The notes beneath the pieces are model-generated. The model was not told the DNA's origin. It did no database searches and saw nothing but the letters and a program-made list of their open reading frames with translations. Shown one piece after another: positions 2,912 through 36,058 of a DNA stretch of 64,000 bases (its first letter is position 1; each line of letters starts with the position of its first letter). Source of the stretch: Cupriavidus necator N-1 (GTDB lineage: Bacteria; Pseudomonadota; Gammaproteobacteria; Burkholderiales; Burkholderiaceae); assembly GCF_000219215.1 (NCBI RefSeq), contig NC_015723.1, positions 310,001-374,000 on the forward strand. The letters run 5' to 3'. A program made the position numbers and the translations under genes.

Positions 2912-4543
2912 TTATTGACGCTTGATCAAGCCCAGCTCGCAATCCACCAGCTGATTGCGGAAGGCACCGCGCTCCCGCGCGCCGCGAGCGGATTTGTCAG
3001 TCACAGAGAAGACGTAAATTCCCGCAAACGCGACCAGCATCGAGAACAGCGCTGGATATTCGTAGGGATAGATCGCCTTCGCGTGTCCCAGCACCTGGAC
3101 CCAGACCGTCGGGCTCAGCACCGTCAGCAGCACCGCAGTCAACAAGCCGAGCGAGCCGCCGACGACGGCACCCCGCGTGGTCAGCCCGCGCCAGTAAATG
3201 GAGAGCAGCAGCACGGGAAAGTTAGAACTGGCGGCGATGGAGAACGTCAGGCTGACGATGAAAGCGATGGTCTGCTTCTCAAAAAGGATGCCCAGCAGGA
3301 TCGACAACACCCCGAGCACCAGTGTCGTCATGCGCGACACCCGCATTTCGTCCTTGTCCGTCGCCGTGCCCTGGCGCAGCACCTTGGCATAAAGGTCATG
3401 GGAGATGGCCGATGAGCCAGCCAGCGTCAGGCCCGCAACCACCGCCAGGATGGTAGAGAATGCCACCGCGCAGATGAAGCCAAGGAAGACGTTGCCACCT
3501 ACGGCATGCGCCAGATGCACGGCGACCATGTTGACACCGCCGATTACCGCGCCCGAGGCGTTGTGATACAGGGGGTCGTTGGCAACGAGCGCAATCGTGC
3601 CGAAGCCGATGATGATGATCAGCGCGTAGCCACTCCCGACGATGCCGGTCGCATACAGGATGCTCTTGCGCGCCGCCTTGACGTCAGCGACCGTAAAGAA
3701 GCGCATCAGGATATGCGGTAGTCCCGCTGTGCCGAAGATTAGCGCGAGCCCGAGGGAGACGGCCGAGACCGGATCGGAGACAAGGCCTCCCGGACTCATG
3801 ATCGCGGTGTGCTTGCCGTGGGCCGCGATAGCCTCGGCGAACAAGGTATTGAGGCTGAAGCCAAAGCGGCCCAGCACCATGAACGCCATGAATCCCGCGC
3901 CTGCCAGCAGGAGGACAGCCTTGATGATCTGGATCCACGTCGTCGCCAGCATGCCGCCGAAAAAGACATAGATGACCATCAGCACACCGACCAGCACTAC
4001 TGCCGCCGTGTAGTTGAAGCCGAACAGCAGCTCCACCAGCTTGCCCGCGCCCACCATTTGCGAAACCAGGTAAAGCAGCACGATGACGATCGAGCTCGAC
4101 GCCGAGAACGCGCGGATCGGGCGTTGCTGCAAGCGGTAGGAGACCACGTCGGCCAGGGTAAACCGGCCCAGGTTGCGCAGTGGCTCTGCAATCAGGAACA
4201 GGATAATGGGCCAGCTTGCCAGAAAGCCGATCGAATAGATCAGACCATCATAGCCGCTGGTGAAGACAAGTGCGGAGATGCCGAGCAGGGACGCGGCGGA
4301 CATATAGTCGCCGGCGATGGCCCAGCCGTTTTGCATGGCGGTGATCTTGCCCCCCGCGGCGTAGTGATCTGCAACGCTGTGGGTGTTCCTGGCGGCCCAG
4401 CGCGTAATCAGCAGCGTTGATGCGACGAAGACCAGAAACATCACGATGGCGATGACGTTCAGCCCCTGGCCGACCGTCGGTGTGGCGGCGATGGCTGGCA
4501 AGGTGGCCGAAAACAATGCAATGAACAGTGAAAGTCGCTTCAT
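2912..4543 (-). CDS. ActP-like sodium:solute symporter (monocarboxylate/acetate type)
   Basis: A 543-residue inner-membrane protein of the SSS family with about 13 hydrophobic segments and an N-terminal signal-like segment ([20 protein letters not shown]). Close in layout to ActP acetate permease: [43 protein letters not shown] region near 60-100, [20 protein letters not shown] near 275-295. Its ATG overlaps the stop of the DUF485 gene by 4 bases (ATGA), the usual yjcH-actP arrangement, so both are co-translated. In this cluster the substrate is more likely the carboxylic acid feeding the neighbouring monooxygenase pathway than acetate, but this is inference. Confidence 0.88.
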
Positions 4544-4902
4544 TTTGCCGCCCCTTCGCGAATCGCGTGAATCATCGCGTCATGCACGGTGTTGGCACGA
4601 TGGACATACAGGGCGACGAGGAAGAAGGTGATCGCGAACATGCCGAATCCGATCGGAATGCCGATGGACATTGGCTGTCCCGGCGTCAATGGACGTCCGA
4701 GCAGCGCCGGGTTGAAGGCGAGCGTGAGGATGTACCCGAAGTACACCGCCAGCATGAGAGTCGTAAGCGTATACGCGAAGCTGCGGCGCGCGCGGACCAG
4801 CGCCTGGAATGCCGGGTTGCTGAGCACCGGATTGGGTGGGGGAAGCGGCGTCGATGTTGCCTCATCACCGCTTGGCGGATACGTTGCGGCAAGGTGTTCC
4901 AT
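4540..4902 (-). CDS. DUF485 membrane protein (YjcH-like partner of ActP)
   Basis: A small inner-membrane protein of about 120 residues with two hydrophobic segments ([20 protein letters not shown] and [20 protein letters not shown]). The family nearly always precedes an ActP-type symporter, as here with a 4-base ATGA overlap. Two starts are possible: ATG at 4914 and ATG at 4902. The second has GGAG 6 bases upstream and is chosen. There are 97 bases between it and the upstream monooxygenase gene, so it may belong to the same transcript. Confidence 0.85.
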
Positions 4903-29493: not shown

Positions 29494-30282
29494 TCACGAA
29501 TGCCAGCCAGCCCTCATGATCGCGCTGGCTGTGTCGACCACGGCCGCCAGGGCAAGCATGGCGATGATCACCGTGCAAGCCTGGGGCAGATGGAACAGGG
29601 ACAGCTCGAAATACAGCATCTGCCCAAGCCCGCCGGCGCCGACAAAGCCAAGGATTGCCGCCACGCGGATATTCGTTTCCCAGCGGTACAGGATGTAGGC
29701 CAGGAACTGGGGCCATACGCAGGGCAGCGTCCCATACATGAAGACCAGCACGGCAGGAGTGCCCCCTTCCGTCAGCGCGCGCGCGGGTGCGCGCGGCGCA
29801 TTCTCCAGCGCCTCGGCGAACAGGCGACCGAGCACGCCCGCGGTATGCAGTGCCAGGGCGAGGGTGCCGGCAAACGGTCCAAGGCCGACGGCGAGCACGG
29901 TCAGGGCTGCCCATACCAGCTCGGGAATCGAGCGCAACACGTTCAGTAGCAAGCGCGACAACGTGCGCAGCGCATCGCCGTAGAGCCCGGAAGCCGGTAG
30001 TGCCAGGCCAAAACCCAGCACCGCCGCACACAGCGTGCCCACGGCGGAAACCGCGAGCGTTTCGAGCATGCCGCCAGCGGTTCTGGCCAAAAAAGCGGAT
30101 GACAGCTCCGGCGGGAAGAACGTCAGCAGGAAGCGCCCCATCTCGGCTGCAGCGTCCGCGGACAAGAGCTGGCTCAGGTCGAGCGACAGATACGCGAAGC
30201 TGCCCGAAACCGCGGCGGCCAACGCGATCAGGGTGAGCAGGCAGCGCATGCAGAATTGAGCGGCCTTGACCTTGTGCGCCAT
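29494..30282 (-). CDS. PhnE-type ABC transporter permease (second permease of the sen operon)
   Basis: A 262-residue inner-membrane permease with about six transmembrane segments and the PhnE-type cytoplasmic loop ([64 protein letters not shown]). The last block is the EAA-like coupling site for the ATPase. ATG at 30282 lies 3 bases after the stop of the other permease, and this is the last gene of a six-gene unit starting at senB. Phosphonate-type transporters often have two permeases. No C-P lyase or phosphonatase gene is nearby, so phosphonate is not the expected substrate here. Confidence 0.88.
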   Translation of the reverse strand: MAHKVKAAQFCMRCLLTLIALAAAVSGSFAYLSLDLSQLLSADAAAEMGRFLLTFFPPELSSAFLARTAGGMLETLAVSAVGTLCAAVLGFGLALPASGLYGDALRTLSRLLLNVLRSIPELVWAALTVLAVGLGPFAGTLALALHTAGVLGRLFAEALENAPRAPARALTEGGTPAVLVFMYGTLPCVWPQFLAYILYRWETNIRVAAILGFVGAGGLGQMLYFELSLFHLPQACTVIIAMLALAAVVDTASAIMRAGWHS

Positions 30283-30285
30283 GAT

Positions 30286-31107
30286 TCAGTCGATCAGCTT
30301 GCGCAGGCGCGCGCTGAGCGCGTCCGCCAGCAGAACCAGCAGCAGGAACACCAGCAGGATGGTCGCGGCTTCCCCGCCGTTGAGCAGTTTCACGGCCTGG
30401 TCCATCAACTGCCCAAGCCCGCCGGCGCCAACGAAACCCATAACCACGGAAGCCCGGATGGCACATTCCCAGCGGTAGACGGTGTACGAGACCAGCTCCT
30501 GCGCGGCATGGGGAAGCAGCCCATAGAACAGTGCCGCCAGGCGCCCGCTTCCGCTGCCAAACAGGGCATCCACGGCGCGTTTGTCGCTGGATTCTAGGAT
30601 TTCCGCATAGACCTTTGCCAGCATGCCGCCATAGGTGATGGCCAGAGCGAGCACGCCCGCCGTCGCCCCCAGGCCGAGAGCACGCACGAAGACCAGCGCC
30701 CACACCAGTTCCGGCACCCCGCGCAGCAGCAGCACCAGGGTGCGCACGCCAGCGCGAACCGCCATGCGCGGCTTGCGTCCCCGGCCGGGGCCGATGCGCG
30801 ACACCGACAGGCTGCCCGTCATGGCCACGGCCAGAGGTGTTGCGATCACAAAGGCGAGCGCAATGCCCGCGGTGGCGATCGCCAGCGTTTCCAGCGTGGC
30901 GTTGACCACAAGCCCGAGGAATCCGGGCGAAACCTCGGGCGGAAGGAAGTTGCGCACGAAGGCGCCCATCACCTTGAGGTTTTCGGTGTCGAACAAGGCT
31001 GAAGGGCTGAACCGGGACAGCCGCAACAATGGCCACAGCAGAAGCAGCGCGAGCACCAGGCCGCTTGCGCGCTGCAGCGCCTGAGGATCGCGCGGGTGGG
31101 TGGTCAT
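30286..31107 (-). CDS. PhnE-type ABC transporter permease (first permease of the sen operon)
   Basis: A 273-residue permease paralogous to its downstream neighbour. It has a single N-terminal hydrophobic segment, then [49 protein letters not shown], and the ATPase-coupling block [28 protein letters not shown] at 31107 overlaps the ATPase stop by 4 bases (ATGA), which shows translational coupling. A long N-terminal extension of the open frame is an out-of-frame shadow of the ATPase gene and is left out. Confidence 0.88.
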
Positions 31108-31946
31108 CGGCACGCCGGCCTGGATGGGGTATCGCCATCGATGGCGGCGCTCGCACCTGCCGCGATGCTCATCAGGGCCTGGCTGCCTTGTACCGGGGGT
31201 GACGCGCTTTCGGAGGCATAGAGTTCGCGCAGCAGCGTGTCGGTCACGCGCTCGGCCGGCAGGTCGAAGGCGATCTCGCCCGCCTTCAAGCCGACGATGC
31301 GGGGAAACCAGCGCAGCGCCAGATCCACTGCGTGCAGGCTGGCGACCAGGGGCACCGCGCGTGTATCCGCTTCCCTGCGCAGCTCGCCCAGGGTAAGGTT
31401 GGCCAGCACCGGGTCCATTGCCGAGACCGGTTCGTCCGCCAGGATCAATTCCGGGCGCTGGTAAAGCACGCGGGCGACGCCCACGCGCTGCAGTTGGCCG
31501 CCCGAGAGCTGGTCGCACCGGTCGAACAGGCGGTCGGCCAGCTCAAGGCGGGCGAGCTGTTCACCGGCACCATCGATGTCTGCCGGATAGACCAGCGACA
31601 GCAAGGATTTCCAGCCGGGCCAGACGCCCAGGCGGCCGGCAAGGATGGCGGTGATCACCCGCTGGCGCGGCGGCATCGGCGGCGCCTGGTGCACCATGCC
31701 GATGCGGCAGCGCAATTGCCGCAGGCGTGCGGCGGACACCGCCCAGGGGCTTTGCTCCAGCACCTCCACACGGCCCTCGCTTGGCCGCAGCGACGTTGCC
31801 AGCAAGCGCAGCAAGGAGGTCTTGCCGGCTCCCGACGGACCGATGACGGCGATGGGCTCGCCGCGGCTGGCCGCCAGTGTGATCTGGCTGAGCGCACGCT
31901 GTCCGTTGGCGTAGCTGACGCTGGCGGCGTCCAGGCGGAAGCTCAT
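31104..31946 (-). CDS. PhnC-type ABC transporter ATP-binding protein (sen operon)
   Basis: A 280-residue nucleotide-binding subunit with Walker [15 protein letters not shown] near residue 36, Q-loop [10 protein letters not shown], signature [15 protein letters not shown], Walker [13 protein letters not shown] and H-loop SLHAVDLAL. Closest in style to PhnC of phosphonate-type importers (the stretch [16 protein letters not shown] resembles the PhnC insertion). ATG at 31946 is 10 bases after the binding-protein stop. Energises uptake or movement of whatever the PhnD-like protein binds. Confidence 0.9.
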
Positions 31947-31956
31947 CAGACCGGCA

Positions 31957-32808
31957 TCATTGGATAAGGCCCGCGGCGCGGGCTGCGGCCTCGATGCCGG
32001 CGTAGTTTTCCGGTCGGGTGGGGATGTACCTGGCGGTCCGCTGCAATGCCATGATTTCCCGCTGCTCGGGATTGGCCGGGTCAAGTCGCAGGAACGCTTC
32101 GGTCAGCTTCTTGCGCAAGGCCGGATCGAGCCCGCCGCGCACGGTCCAGTTGTAGTCGTAGTAGGGCGGTGTGACGGCAAATACCCTGACCTTGGCGGGA
32201 TCCACCTTATGCTGCTCAACCAGCTTGTCCCACACCGAGGCATTGAGCACGCCGGCGTCGGCCCTGCCGGCCTGCACGAAAGCCACCGTCGCATCGTGGG
32301 CGCCCGAATAGGCGACCGTCTTGAAGTCCTTGTCCGGGTCGATGCCGGCCTGCAGCAGGAAGTGCCGTGGCATCAGGTGGCCGGAGGTAGAGGACGGCGC
32401 GCCGAAGACGAAGGTGTGGCCTTTGAGGTCGGCCAGCGACTTGATCGCGCTGTTGGCGGTGATGAACTTGCTGGTGAACGCGGCATCTTCTTGGCGCTGG
32501 ACGATGGGGATGGTGGCTCCCTTCGTCCGGATCTTGCTCTGCACATAGGTAAAGCCGCCCAGCCACGCCATGTCGATCTTGCCGGTGGCCAGCGATTCGA
32601 CCACCGCAGCGTAGTCCGTGACGGGCACGAACTTCACCTTCATGCCGGTTTCCTTCTCCAGGTAGTTGCCGAGCGGCGCGAACTTGCGCTGCAGCTCGGT
32701 GGGGGACTCGTCGGGAATGGCCGAGACCTTCAGGACAGCCTGGGCACCGGCGAGGCCGGCAAAGCCCAGCAGGGTCAGCGCGGCAAGGCGCTTAAGCAAC
32801 GGCAACAC
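31957..32808 (-). CDS. PhnD-like periplasmic substrate-binding protein (sen operon)
   Basis: A 283-residue exported binding protein. Signal peptide [24 protein letters not shown], then the PhnD/SsuA-like fold: [104 protein letters not shown]. The family binds oxyanions or phosphonates, and the Thr/Ser-rich [10 protein letters not shown] loop is where the anion would sit. The start is GTG at 32808 after AAGGAG, inside the 3' end of senC (17-base overlap). Linkage to senB-senC suggests a selenium-containing or related ligand; this is inference. Confidence 0.85.
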
Positions 32809-33865
32809 GGGCGGCTCCTTGCGTCATTTCACCGATCACCGCAGCGTCTGCGAAGCCGTCCCGGCGAAAGATCTCCAGGATCTCGTCCACGGCTTCCGGT
32901 GCGCACGACACCAGCAAGCCGCCGCTGGTCTGGGGATCGGTCAGTAGTGCCTTCTGGCTTGGCGTGACCGACGTGGACAGGTCCACCTCGCTGCCGTAGC
33001 TGACCCAGTTGCGCCCCGATGCGCCGGTCACCAGCCCTTCGGCGGCCATGCGCTCAACCCGCGGCAGCAGCGGAATCCGCCCCATGTCCAGCCGGGCGCC
33101 GACGCCCGCGCCACGACACAGTTCCAGCAGGTGGCCGAGCAGGCCGAAGCCGGTCACGTCGGTCAGCGCGTGGACACCCGGCACTTCGGCCAGCAGTCGG
33201 CCGGGCGTGTTGAGTTTGGTGGTGCAGGCAATCAGGTCTTGATAGCCGGCCGCGTCGAGCTTGTCCTTCTTCACCGCGGCGGACAACACGCCCACGCCCA
33301 ACGGCTTGCCGAGGATCAGCTTGTCGCCCGCCTCGGCGCCGCTGTTCTTCTTGACCCGATTCGGGTGCACCAGACCAAGGACCACCAGCCCGTAGATCGG
33401 CTCAAGGGAATCGATGGTGTGGCCGCCCGCGACCGGGATGCCCGCCTGGGCGCAGATCGATTCCCCGCCTTCGAGGATCTTGCCGATGACCTCAGGCGGC
33501 AGCTTCTCGATAGGCATGCCGACCAGCGCCAGCGCCATGATCGGGGTTCCGCCCATGGCGTAGACGTCGGAGATGGCGTTGGTGGCGGCGATACGCCCGA
33601 AATCGTACGGATCGTCCACCACCGGCATGAAGAAGTCCGTGGTGGCGATCAGGGCCTGGCTGTCATTGAGCTGGTAGACCGCCGCGTCGTCGCTGGTTTC
33701 CTTGCCGACCAGCAGTGCTGCCGGAGCAGGGAAGCCGACCGAATTCCTGAGGATTTCGGAAAGCACACCGGGGGCGATCTTGCACCCACACCCGCCGCCG
33801 TGGGAGAAGGCGGTGAGCTTGATCTTTGCGTTGTTTGGCTGGTCCACTGCGGGGCTCCGGGTCAT
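32792..33865 (-). CDS. senC: selenide, water dikinase (SelD-type; SenC of the selenoneine pathway)
   Basis: A 357-residue selenophosphate synthetase that makes selenophosphate from hydrogen selenide and ATP. The N-terminal active-site block FSHGGGCGCKIAP carries catalytic Cys26 and Lys29 (equivalent to E. coli Cys17 and Lys20), so this is a Cys and not a selenocysteine enzyme. Metal-binding Asp residues are in ETSDDAAVY and IATTDFFMPVVDDPYDFGRIAATNA; LTDVTGFGLLGHL and TDPQTSGGLL are also conserved. The ATG overlaps the senB stop by 4 bases and the 3' end overlaps the PhnD-like gene. No selA, selB or mnmH is in the window, so the supplied selenophosphate is probably used by SenB. It could also serve as the cell's general SelD. 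Confidence 0.9.
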   Translation of the reverse strand: MTRSPAVDQPNNAKIKLTAFSHGGGCGCKIAPGVLSEILRNSVGFPAPAALLVGKETSDDAAVYQLNDSQALIATTDFFMPVVDDPYDFGRIAATNAISDVYAMGGTPIMALALVGMPIEKLPPEVIGKILEGGESICAQAGIPVAGGHTIDSLEPIYGLVVLGLVHPNRVKKNSGAEAGDKLILGKPLGVGVLSAAVKKDKLDAAGYQDLIACTTKLNTPGRLLAEVPGVHALTDVTGFGLLGHLLELCRGAGVGARLDMGRIPLLPRVERMAAEGLVTGASGRNWVSYGSEVDLSTSVTPSQKALLTDPQTSGGLLVSCAPEAVDEILEIFRRDGFADAAVIGEMTQGAARVAVA

Positions 33866-34857
33866 TCTGGTTTCAAGGCGTCGGCGACAAGTTTACTCAC
33901 TTCCGCCCGTTCCCGCGCCGGCGCAAACAGCGGTGCGCGAAGTGCGCATTGCTGCCGCAGGCGGTTCAGGAACCCGGCGTCCCGGCTGGTGCGTTCCAGC
34001 ACCAGCGCCAATTGCGCGGCGTCACCCAACGGAAAATAGCCTTCGTAGTCACGGCCCAGCATGCCGAAGTTGCCCGGGATGCGGCTGGCCAGCACCGGCA
34101 CGCCGCTGGCGACGGCCTCGGTGATCACGTTGGCGCCGCCTTCCATGGCGCTGGAGATCACCATGGCCTGTGCTTGTCGGATGTGCTGCCGGGTTTGGTC
34201 ATGGGGCAGGTTTCTGAGCCAGACATAGCGCCGCACGCCGGGCCAGGCTTGTGCTTCCAGCGCCAGGGCCGCCTGCTGATATGCGTCATCCAGCGCGCCA
34301 CCGATATGGATCAGGCGCACGCGCGAATCGTGGGGAAGCAGCGAAAGGGCGCGCATGGGCGTCAGCGGGTCTTTTTCCGCCCGCATGTGGCCGACCAGCA
34401 CGACGTCGAAGTGATCCTGGCTGGGCGCCGCGGGTGCGCATGCCGGGGCAGACTGGTAGATCACCCGGCACCGGGCGCGATGCGCGGCCGCCAGTTCGGC
34501 GAGCCCTTCGTCCTGCAGCACCACCAGATGGGTGGCGAGTGCGAGCGAGCGCTGGGCTGATGCATCGGTGCGGATGTCGCGGTACAGATCGGTGCCGGTC
34601 AGCACGACGATTAGCGGACGATCCGGACAAGCCTCGGCGAACCTGGCGATGGACTCGGCCGAGCGTCGGGCGTGCAGGGCGATCAGGCAGTCGGGCAGGG
34701 CGCCGCCCTGGCTGGCCGTCGACCATTCAGCGGCCAGTGTGACATCGTAGTCCCCCTGCAGGAACCGGGCCCAGCGATTGGCGGTTTGCCAGTTGCCATT
34801 GTTGGCTTTGCGCAGCGCCGGACTGATAATTGCGACGGTGGCCTTGGGAGGACGCAT
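33862..34857 (-). CDS. senB: selenosugar synthase SenB (GT4-like glycosyltransferase)
   Basis: A 331-residue glycosyltransferase of the family that joins selenophosphate to a UDP-sugar to make a selenosugar. It opens with [23 protein letters not shown], characteristic of this family, and continues with [43 protein letters not shown] near 190, and [20 protein letters not shown] near 255 for nucleotide-sugar binding. ATG at 34857 is chosen from the family N-terminus; no clear ribosome site precedes it. Its start codon overlaps that of the divergent senA, and its stop overlaps the senC start by 4 bases. Function rests on established knowledge of the sen pathway together with this gene context. 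Confidence 0.88.
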
Positions 34858-36058
34858 GACGATAGGTTCTGAGGGGGCAGCAGCAAGAAGGATAAACAAG
34901 TTCGAGCTGGATGCGGCGTTTGCCGAGGCGCACCGGCGCACGTGGGGCCTGCTTCAGGAGCTATCGCCGTCCCAATGGCAGGTTCCTTACGATGCAGGAA
35001 TCAATCCGCCCTTGTGGGAGTATGCCCATATCGCCTGGTTCACGGAGCTATGGGTGCTGCGGGAGCCGCGTGCCGGTCAGGACGGCCGCTGGGTGGCCAG
35101 CCTCCCGTCCATGCTGGCGGACGCCGACCGCCTCTTCGATTCCATGCGCGTCGCCCACCGGGATCGATGGCATCTTGCGCTGCCCCGGCTCCCCGAGATT
35201 CGCGACTACGCAGCCGCCGTGCTGGAGCACGTTCGCGCCAGGCTCGCCACGTCGGACGATACCGACGCTGCGCTCTATTTTTTCCGGCTCGCCTTGTTCC
35301 ACGAAGACATGCATGCGGAGGCGCTGACCTATATGCGCCAGACGCTCGATTATCCGCTGCATGCCCCGCTCGGCATGCCTTCCATTGCGCCAGGCGCCGG
35401 CTCGGCAGCCGCAGGCGGCGACACGTTCCAGATGGGGTCACCCATCGGAGGCGACGGGTTCGTCTTCGACAATGAGAAGTGGTCCCACCCGGTCCACATC
35501 GCCCCGTTCCGCATCGATCGCACTTGCGAAAGCAATGCCGCATTTGCGGAATTCGTGGCCGCAGGCGGCTACCGCGACCGTCAATGGTGGTCCGACGACG
35601 GACGCGCATGGCTGCAACAGAGCGGGCTGGCGCATCCGCTGCGCTGGCGCCGGACAGCCGGCGGCATCGCGGGGCAATGGGCGTTGCGCTGGTTCGGGCA
35701 GTGGGTGCCGCTGCCGGCCGAACAGCCGGTGTGTCATATCAATGCCTACGAGGCGGAAGCCTATTGCCGCTGGGCCGGCAAGCGCTTGCCCACGGAAGCC
35801 GAATGGGAGTATGCGGCAACGCATGACCTGATCCGCTGGGGTAGCGCCGTGTGGGAATGGACGGCTGATCCTTTCGTGCCCTATGCAGGGTTCTCGCCCG
35901 ACCCCTACCAGGAATATTCCGCCCCCTGGTTTCACACGCATCGCTCCGTTCGCGGCGGATCGTTCGCCACCCATGCCCGCATGCAGCATCCTCGCTACCG
36001 GAACTTCTACCTGCCGCACCGCGGCGACCTCTTTGTCGGATTCCGCTGCTGCGGTTGA
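34856..36058 (+). CDS. senA: selenoneine synthase SenA (EgtB-like non-haem iron enzyme)
   Basis: A 400-residue enzyme with an N-terminal DinB-like helical domain and a C-terminal formylglycine-generating-enzyme-like domain. Iron ligands are visible: His in [13 protein letters not shown] near 60 and the HxxxHxE motif in [15 protein letters not shown] near 150. The C-terminal domain has [40 protein letters not shown] and [36 protein letters not shown]. EgtB joins cysteine or gamma-glutamylcysteine to hercynine; beside senB and senC the likely role is oxidative transfer of selenium from a selenosugar to hercynine. GGGAGG lies 4 bases before the ATG. No EgtD (hercynine maker) is in the window. 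Confidence 0.88.

Follow-up and report, generated by a model that had tools for sequence, protein, structure and literature searches.

A TIGR04553-family ABC importer beside the selenoneine genes of Cupriavidus necator, a candidate selenite transporter

The senABC cluster of Variovorax paradoxus has been described with three proteins, and the word "transport" is absent from the main text of that description (PMC10891094). Enzymes of the same three names are encoded in a 64,000-nucleotide stretch of the Cupriavidus necator N-1 genome (contig NC_015723.1, positions 310,001 to 374,000; "the window", in whose own numbering its genes are placed below), where senB and senC are followed by the binding protein, ATPase and two permeases of an ATP-binding cassette (ABC) transporter. 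This transporter is the subject of the present analysis. It represents a recurrent, selenium-linked importer and is probably a high-affinity system whose substrate is an inorganic oxyanion of selenium, with hydrogen selenite (HSeO3-) the likeliest candidate.

Among solved structures, those of picocyanobacterial PhnD1 (7s6g, 5lq5, 5lq8) are closest to the window's binding protein by both sequence and fold. PhnD1 was published as a phosphite-binding protein, probably of a phosphate transporter, and is co-located with tesA (PMC10284923). PtxB of the PtxABC system (5o2j, 5jvb, 5lv1) has the same fold, Ser-Thr-Ser and His site and Tyr cap but forms a clade of its own (100/100), to which the window protein does not belong, and carries QYPW where the family of the window protein mostly has D/N-Y-(N/Q/H)-W. 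Escherichia coli PhnCDE shares the ABC superfamily and the binding-protein fold; however, E. coli PhnD has an Asp replacing the Tyr cap, and the window protein scores below the cut-off of the PhnD equivalog model TIGR03431 (169.8 bits, cut-off 261.1). AioX (arsenite) and ArrX (arsenate) belong to the same fold family and set a precedent for non-phosphorus oxyanions in this fold, but they show just 18-25% identity to the window protein in fold alignments.

The locus and its binding protein

Gene identities were assigned with curated family models scored against their cut-offs (table 1). The seven genes of the original prediction (senA, senB, senC and a four-gene PhnCDE-type transporter) were recovered by the models, and all overlaps and gaps agreed on re-measurement: senB and senC overlap by 4 bases and senC and the binding-protein gene by 17, followed by a gap of 10, an overlap of 4 and a gap of 3 bases. 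The genes from senB to the second permease form one tightly packed six-gene unit. With SenA and SenB over curated cut-offs and a selenophosphate synthetase present, the window contains a sen locus, and its SenB shares 92% identity with the SenB of Cupriavidus necator UYPR2.512. The gene called senC is present but is a full-length, ordinary selD rather than something distinct from it. A separate, selenoneine-specific synthetase was rejected, as the genome search recovered this gene as the only SelD over cut-off in the window's genome.

Inspection of the starts placed the senA start at ATG 34856, preceded by GGGAGGA (the longest open reading frame begins at TTG 34778), that of senB at GTG 34941 or ATG 34857, and that of the ATPase at ATG 31946. 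Provided that senB uses the in-frame ATG, the divergent senA and senB start codons share a single CATG (34855-34858).

Table 1. Genes of the selenium locus in the window (bits are given as score/cut-off)
Gene or product	Positions	Strand	Family model
senA, selenoneine synthase	34856..36058	+	NF041186, 524/420 bits (scored on the longest open reading frame)
senB, selenosugar synthase	33862..34941	-	TIGR04348, 463/300 bits
selD (originally called senC), selenophosphate synthetase	32792..33865	-	NF002098, 548/299 bits
Periplasmic substrate-binding protein, TIGR04553 family, phosphite-type pocket	31957..32808	-	TIGR04553, 400/250 bits
ABC ATPase, PhnC-like	31104..31946	-	TIGR02315, 211/266 bits (below equivalog cut-off)
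ABC permease 1, PhnE-like	30286..31107	-	TIGR01097, 195/217 bits (below cut-off)
ABC permease 2, PhnE-like	29494..30282	-	TIGR01097, 226/217 bits (above cut-off)

The NCBIfam name of TIGR04553 is "putative selenate ABC transporter substrate-binding protein", and near-identical public Cupriavidus proteins bear it (among the best 120 of 8000 scored). The selenium link of the importer is thus already known and not new. The model is of the type hypoth_equivalog, so the function in its name is a guess, and the open-access literature searched contained no experimental evidence for the function of the family. A table of the Pseudomonas putida exoproteome names a "phosphonate/selenate" binding protein (PMC9426549). 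Compared with the family name, the evidence presented here favors selenite and an association with SelD in general.

The predicted structure of the binding protein (predicted local distance difference test score, pLDDT, 92) has PhnD1 (7s6g/5lq8/5lq5) as its best fold matches; transferrin entries among the matches were taken as a shared fold only. All residues that hold phosphite in Prochlorococcus PhnD1 are kept in a small closed pocket, and the Ser-Thr-Ser and His site and Tyr cap correspond to S140, T141, S142, H171 and Y219. Ten of 11 tabulated positions are identical to PhnD1, including all nine pocket and cap residues; position 207 differs (His in PhnD1, Asn in the window protein). Across the 46 aligned rows, Tyr46, Ser126-Thr127-Ser128 and His158 (Pm_PhnD numbering) are invariant, Tyr206 is present in 44, and position 205 is Asp in 40 and Asn in six. 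Two tandem binding-protein genes lie beside selD in genome G445 (L137 9543-11342), one of which lacks the cap Tyr and groups with a copy from G318, a complete genome without SelD.

Association of the importer with selenium genes

With the window's SenB as query, 51 SenB loci were collected. The binding protein is present in 17, was not found in 23 with enough flanking sequence, and 11 contigs were too short. It directly follows senC in five of the 17 loci and senB in another five, lies on the senA side in two, and in the remaining five stands further along the same side of a locus that includes egtD. The 17-base overlap of the window is not conserved: judged by the ends of tblastn matches, a comparable overlap is seen in two of the 10 direct cases, and in the other eight the genes are 8-198 bases apart. 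Whole-genome searches covered 31 SenB genomes, drawn from 32 of the 51 loci. TIGR04553 exceeds its cut-off in 20; in nine of these it was not seen in the SenB locus, and in six of the nine it adjoins selD or egtD. In several Oxalobacteraceae (L179, L182-L185, L032, L034, L048) egtD and an EgtB-like gene are arranged divergently to the importer (the EgtB-like gene scored for L182 only). Overall, 25 families recur in at least three loci; besides the importer, sen and SelD genes, the family searches covered only EgtD among them.

Some relatives lack senC. In one (L013, about 4523-4643) the frame of the binding protein opens with residues resembling the beginning of senC, and a short senC match persists between senB and the binding protein in another (L012 9096-9359); judging from such remnants, senC may have been deleted from these loci and the importer retained. 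The importer of Paraburkholderia tagetis (L015 9184-14695) looks interrupted: the binding-protein match is shortened, no ATPase match was found there, and permease 2 lies ~4 kb further on.

Co-occurrence was determined in 185 genomes of the window's class and 349 of its phylum, counted without phylogenetic correction. TIGR04553 is over cut-off in seven of the class genomes and 26 of the phylum genomes (30 different genomes in total). Within these 30, SelD is over cut-off in 28, SelU in 25, SelB in 15 and SenB in nine; by genus, at the E-value limits of the searches, the fractions are 20/21 for SelD, 17/21 for SelU and 7/21 for SenB. Neither SenB nor EgtD has a match in 10 of the 30, and in an eleventh (G481) SenB is lacking and the EgtD match is broken and below cut-off. 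All seven importer genomes of the class sample have SelD, compared with 39 out of 185 overall (hypergeometric p ~1e-5; 6e-5 without the window's genome). The sister clade of the family in the tree (nine rows) has SelD over cut-off in none of its nine genomes, two of which are <90% complete. TIGR04553 occurs without SelD in a 78%-complete assembly (G437) and in G318. Adjacency gives the same picture, as three of the 21 SenB-negative genomes (G231, G381 and G445) carry the importer divergent from selD (0.11 expected, P ~2e-4). A survey published in 2016 reports a gene for an ABC transporter ATPase in the vicinity of orphan selD genes (PMC5029168).

The importer thus tracks the use of selenium as such, not that of selenoneine in particular. 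In some lineages it is genuinely tied more closely to selenoneine: SenB is enriched among the importer genomes of the class sample (5/7), and remains so within the SelD genomes (p ~0.01). The observation behind the original prediction, that the transporter belongs with the selenium genes, is borne out by these varied arrangements and by the SelD co-occurrence; the organic cargoes proposed for it were not supported.

The cargo of the importer

Since the phosphite-type pocket residues are kept, uptake of an inorganic oxyanion is suggested, with selenite likelier than selenate. The binding protein would trap the anion in its small closed pocket (Ser-Thr-Ser, His, Tyr, Asp and the Tyr cap), and the two permeases and the ATPase would carry it into the cytoplasm, where selenite would be reduced to selenide. 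SelD could then convert selenide to selenophosphate, from which SenB would produce the selenosugar that SenA couples to hercynine made by an EgtD encoded elsewhere in the genome. SelU should draw on this selenophosphate as well. The importer would thus supply the cell with selenium in general; in this lineage it stands in an operon with senB and the sole SelD over cut-off in the genome. Selenocysteine decoding as a third user of SelD is not claimed for this host: SelB is over cut-off (L186 9956-11866), but SelA has no match in the genome, leaving SelB an orphan. A second locus (L188 5042-7395) contains egtD and a SenA/EgtB relative that stays under both cut-offs (SenA 365/420, EgtB 188/360).

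A specificity for selenate (SeO4 2-) would agree with the family name but has a rather low probability. At neutral pH selenate is an unprotonated dianion and selenite is largely HSeO3-, which favors selenite in a pocket of this kind. The position that bears on this is 205: the ligand of Pm_PhnD, read by the authors as the mono-anionic form, is in contact with the carboxylate of Asp205 (PMC5700983), and this Asp is kept in 40 of the 46 rows; the Asn of the other six would not repel a dianion. Taken together, selenite is probably the cargo rather than selenate. It is somewhat less probable again that the importer carries phosphite or phosphate and neighbors selenium genes by chance. The pocket residues all match those through which PhnD1 holds phosphite (PMC5700983), and phosphite is the ligand that PhnD1 bound best among those measured; of the other solved families PtxB comes closest, and PtxB-clade proteins also occur in SelD genomes. 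This explanation has to be set against the SelD association across genomes and the various arrangements in which the importer adjoins selD, selU and sen genes. In addition, two PhnD1-bearing Synechococcus strains did not grow on phosphite or methylphosphonate as sole phosphorus source (PMC10284923). The earlier statement that C-P lyase is missing holds for the window but not for the genome, whose phnI-/phnJ-like genes (L144) lie ~1 Mb from the importer and so do not provide the linked C-P lyase of a PhnCDE system; they are accompanied by a PhnD and PhnC of their own (the search did not extend to phosphonatase or other phosphonate genes).

Selenoneine, ergothioneine or hercynine, the cargoes of the original prediction, are unlikely, and of all the candidates they are by far the least probable. 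Their appeal comes from the recurrent adjacency of the importer to senA and senB, or to egtD-egtB in the Oxalobacteraceae, and from the enrichment of SenB in importer genomes within the SelD set. They are difficult to reconcile with the importer genomes that lack SenB (21/30) or have no match to either SenB or EgtD, with the importer-selD pairs of the three SenB-negative genomes, and with the pocket. Known ergothioneine importers (EgtUV) have another type of binding protein. In the published description, the closed pocket with its Tyr cap sterically obstructs bulkier groups (PMC5700983). Import of hercynine by a host unable to make it was rejected, since an EgtD is encoded in the host genome (G000:C3:2684444-2685337, 377 bits, cut-off 290.9) and the host should make its own hercynine.

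Several observations weigh against selenite import. PhnD1, which represents the family among solved structures, has a Kd for phosphite of 0.05-4.3 uM and a weaker affinity for phosphate (PMC10284923), and the family name specifies selenate. No TIGR04553 match (E up to 1e-60) was obtained in 11 of the 31 SenB-positive genomes, and the link seen in the Oxalobacteraceae is to egtD-egtB. Within ~10 kb of the importer, neither SelD nor SenB was found in 19 of the 30 genomes, several of whose contigs end sooner. G318 is complete and has TIGR04553 without SelD, but its binding protein is one of the two copies lacking the cap Tyr, a point in favor of selenite import and not against it. The 30 genomes include close relatives, which the uncorrected counts carry with them. 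Finally, three of the four PtxB-clade rows in the class sample come from SelD genomes (G127, G077 and G179, not G140), so co-occurrence with SelD alone is not specific to the TIGR04553 family. In G179 (L172 7517-12450) a PhnC-like ATPase, a PtxB-clade binding protein (TIGR04553 score 150 bits, under the cut-off) and one PhnE-like permease precede selD-selU on the same strand, with 341 bases between permease and selD. This arrangement fits what selenite import would predict, although one case proves little.

PhnD1 and the wider family

The recurrent selenium-linked importer is real; its connection to PhnD1 is the bolder point. On TIGR04553 (cut-off 250) the PhnD1 structures 7s6g and 5lq5 reach 338 and 302 bits; in the tree they join, at 100/99, 16 rows of the family, of which 12 are from the window's class and four from other classes of the phylum. 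The branch uniting the whole family with PhnD1 is not strong (92/68), and 5lq5 is a long branch. Prochlorococcus PhnD2/PtxB (5lv1) falls among the true PtxBs. By score and tree position, PhnD1 falls inside the TIGR04553 family. Its role is treated as a puzzle in the literature.

PhnD1 is present in 97 out of 97 Cyanorak strains, is not upregulated on phosphorus starvation and binds phosphite best, and the strains tested that lack phosphite-use genes were unable to use phosphite; the current proposal for the picocyanobacterial PhnDCE is phosphate transport at medium affinity, its phosphite binding being fortuitous, and the string "selen" does not occur in the main text of that study (PMC10284923). 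Prochlorococcus and Synechococcus carry SelD fused to an NADH-dehydrogenase-like domain, and ybbB was noted in cyanobacteria (PMC1273633). A SelD of fusion length (>750 residues) adjoins the importer in five Proteobacteria (G126, G154, G247, G313 and G349). The G126 fusion, the only one scored, reaches the SelD cut-off but falls short of the one set for the model "fusion_not_SelD", a name that questions whether fusions of this type are SelD. It is tentatively suggested, with something short of an even chance, that the PhnDCE of the 97 Cyanorak strains is a selenite importer of the window's family that feeds the NADH-dehydrogenase/SelD fusion.

A search of the open-access literature found no paper that demonstrates a dedicated bacterial ABC importer for selenium. 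If selenite is indeed bound in a phosphite-type pocket, this would suggest how cells gather scarce selenium. The proposed phosphorus role of PhnD1 fits poorly with its binding and growth data, and, should PhnD1 bind selenite, this would explain a conserved importer of abundant ocean phototrophs.

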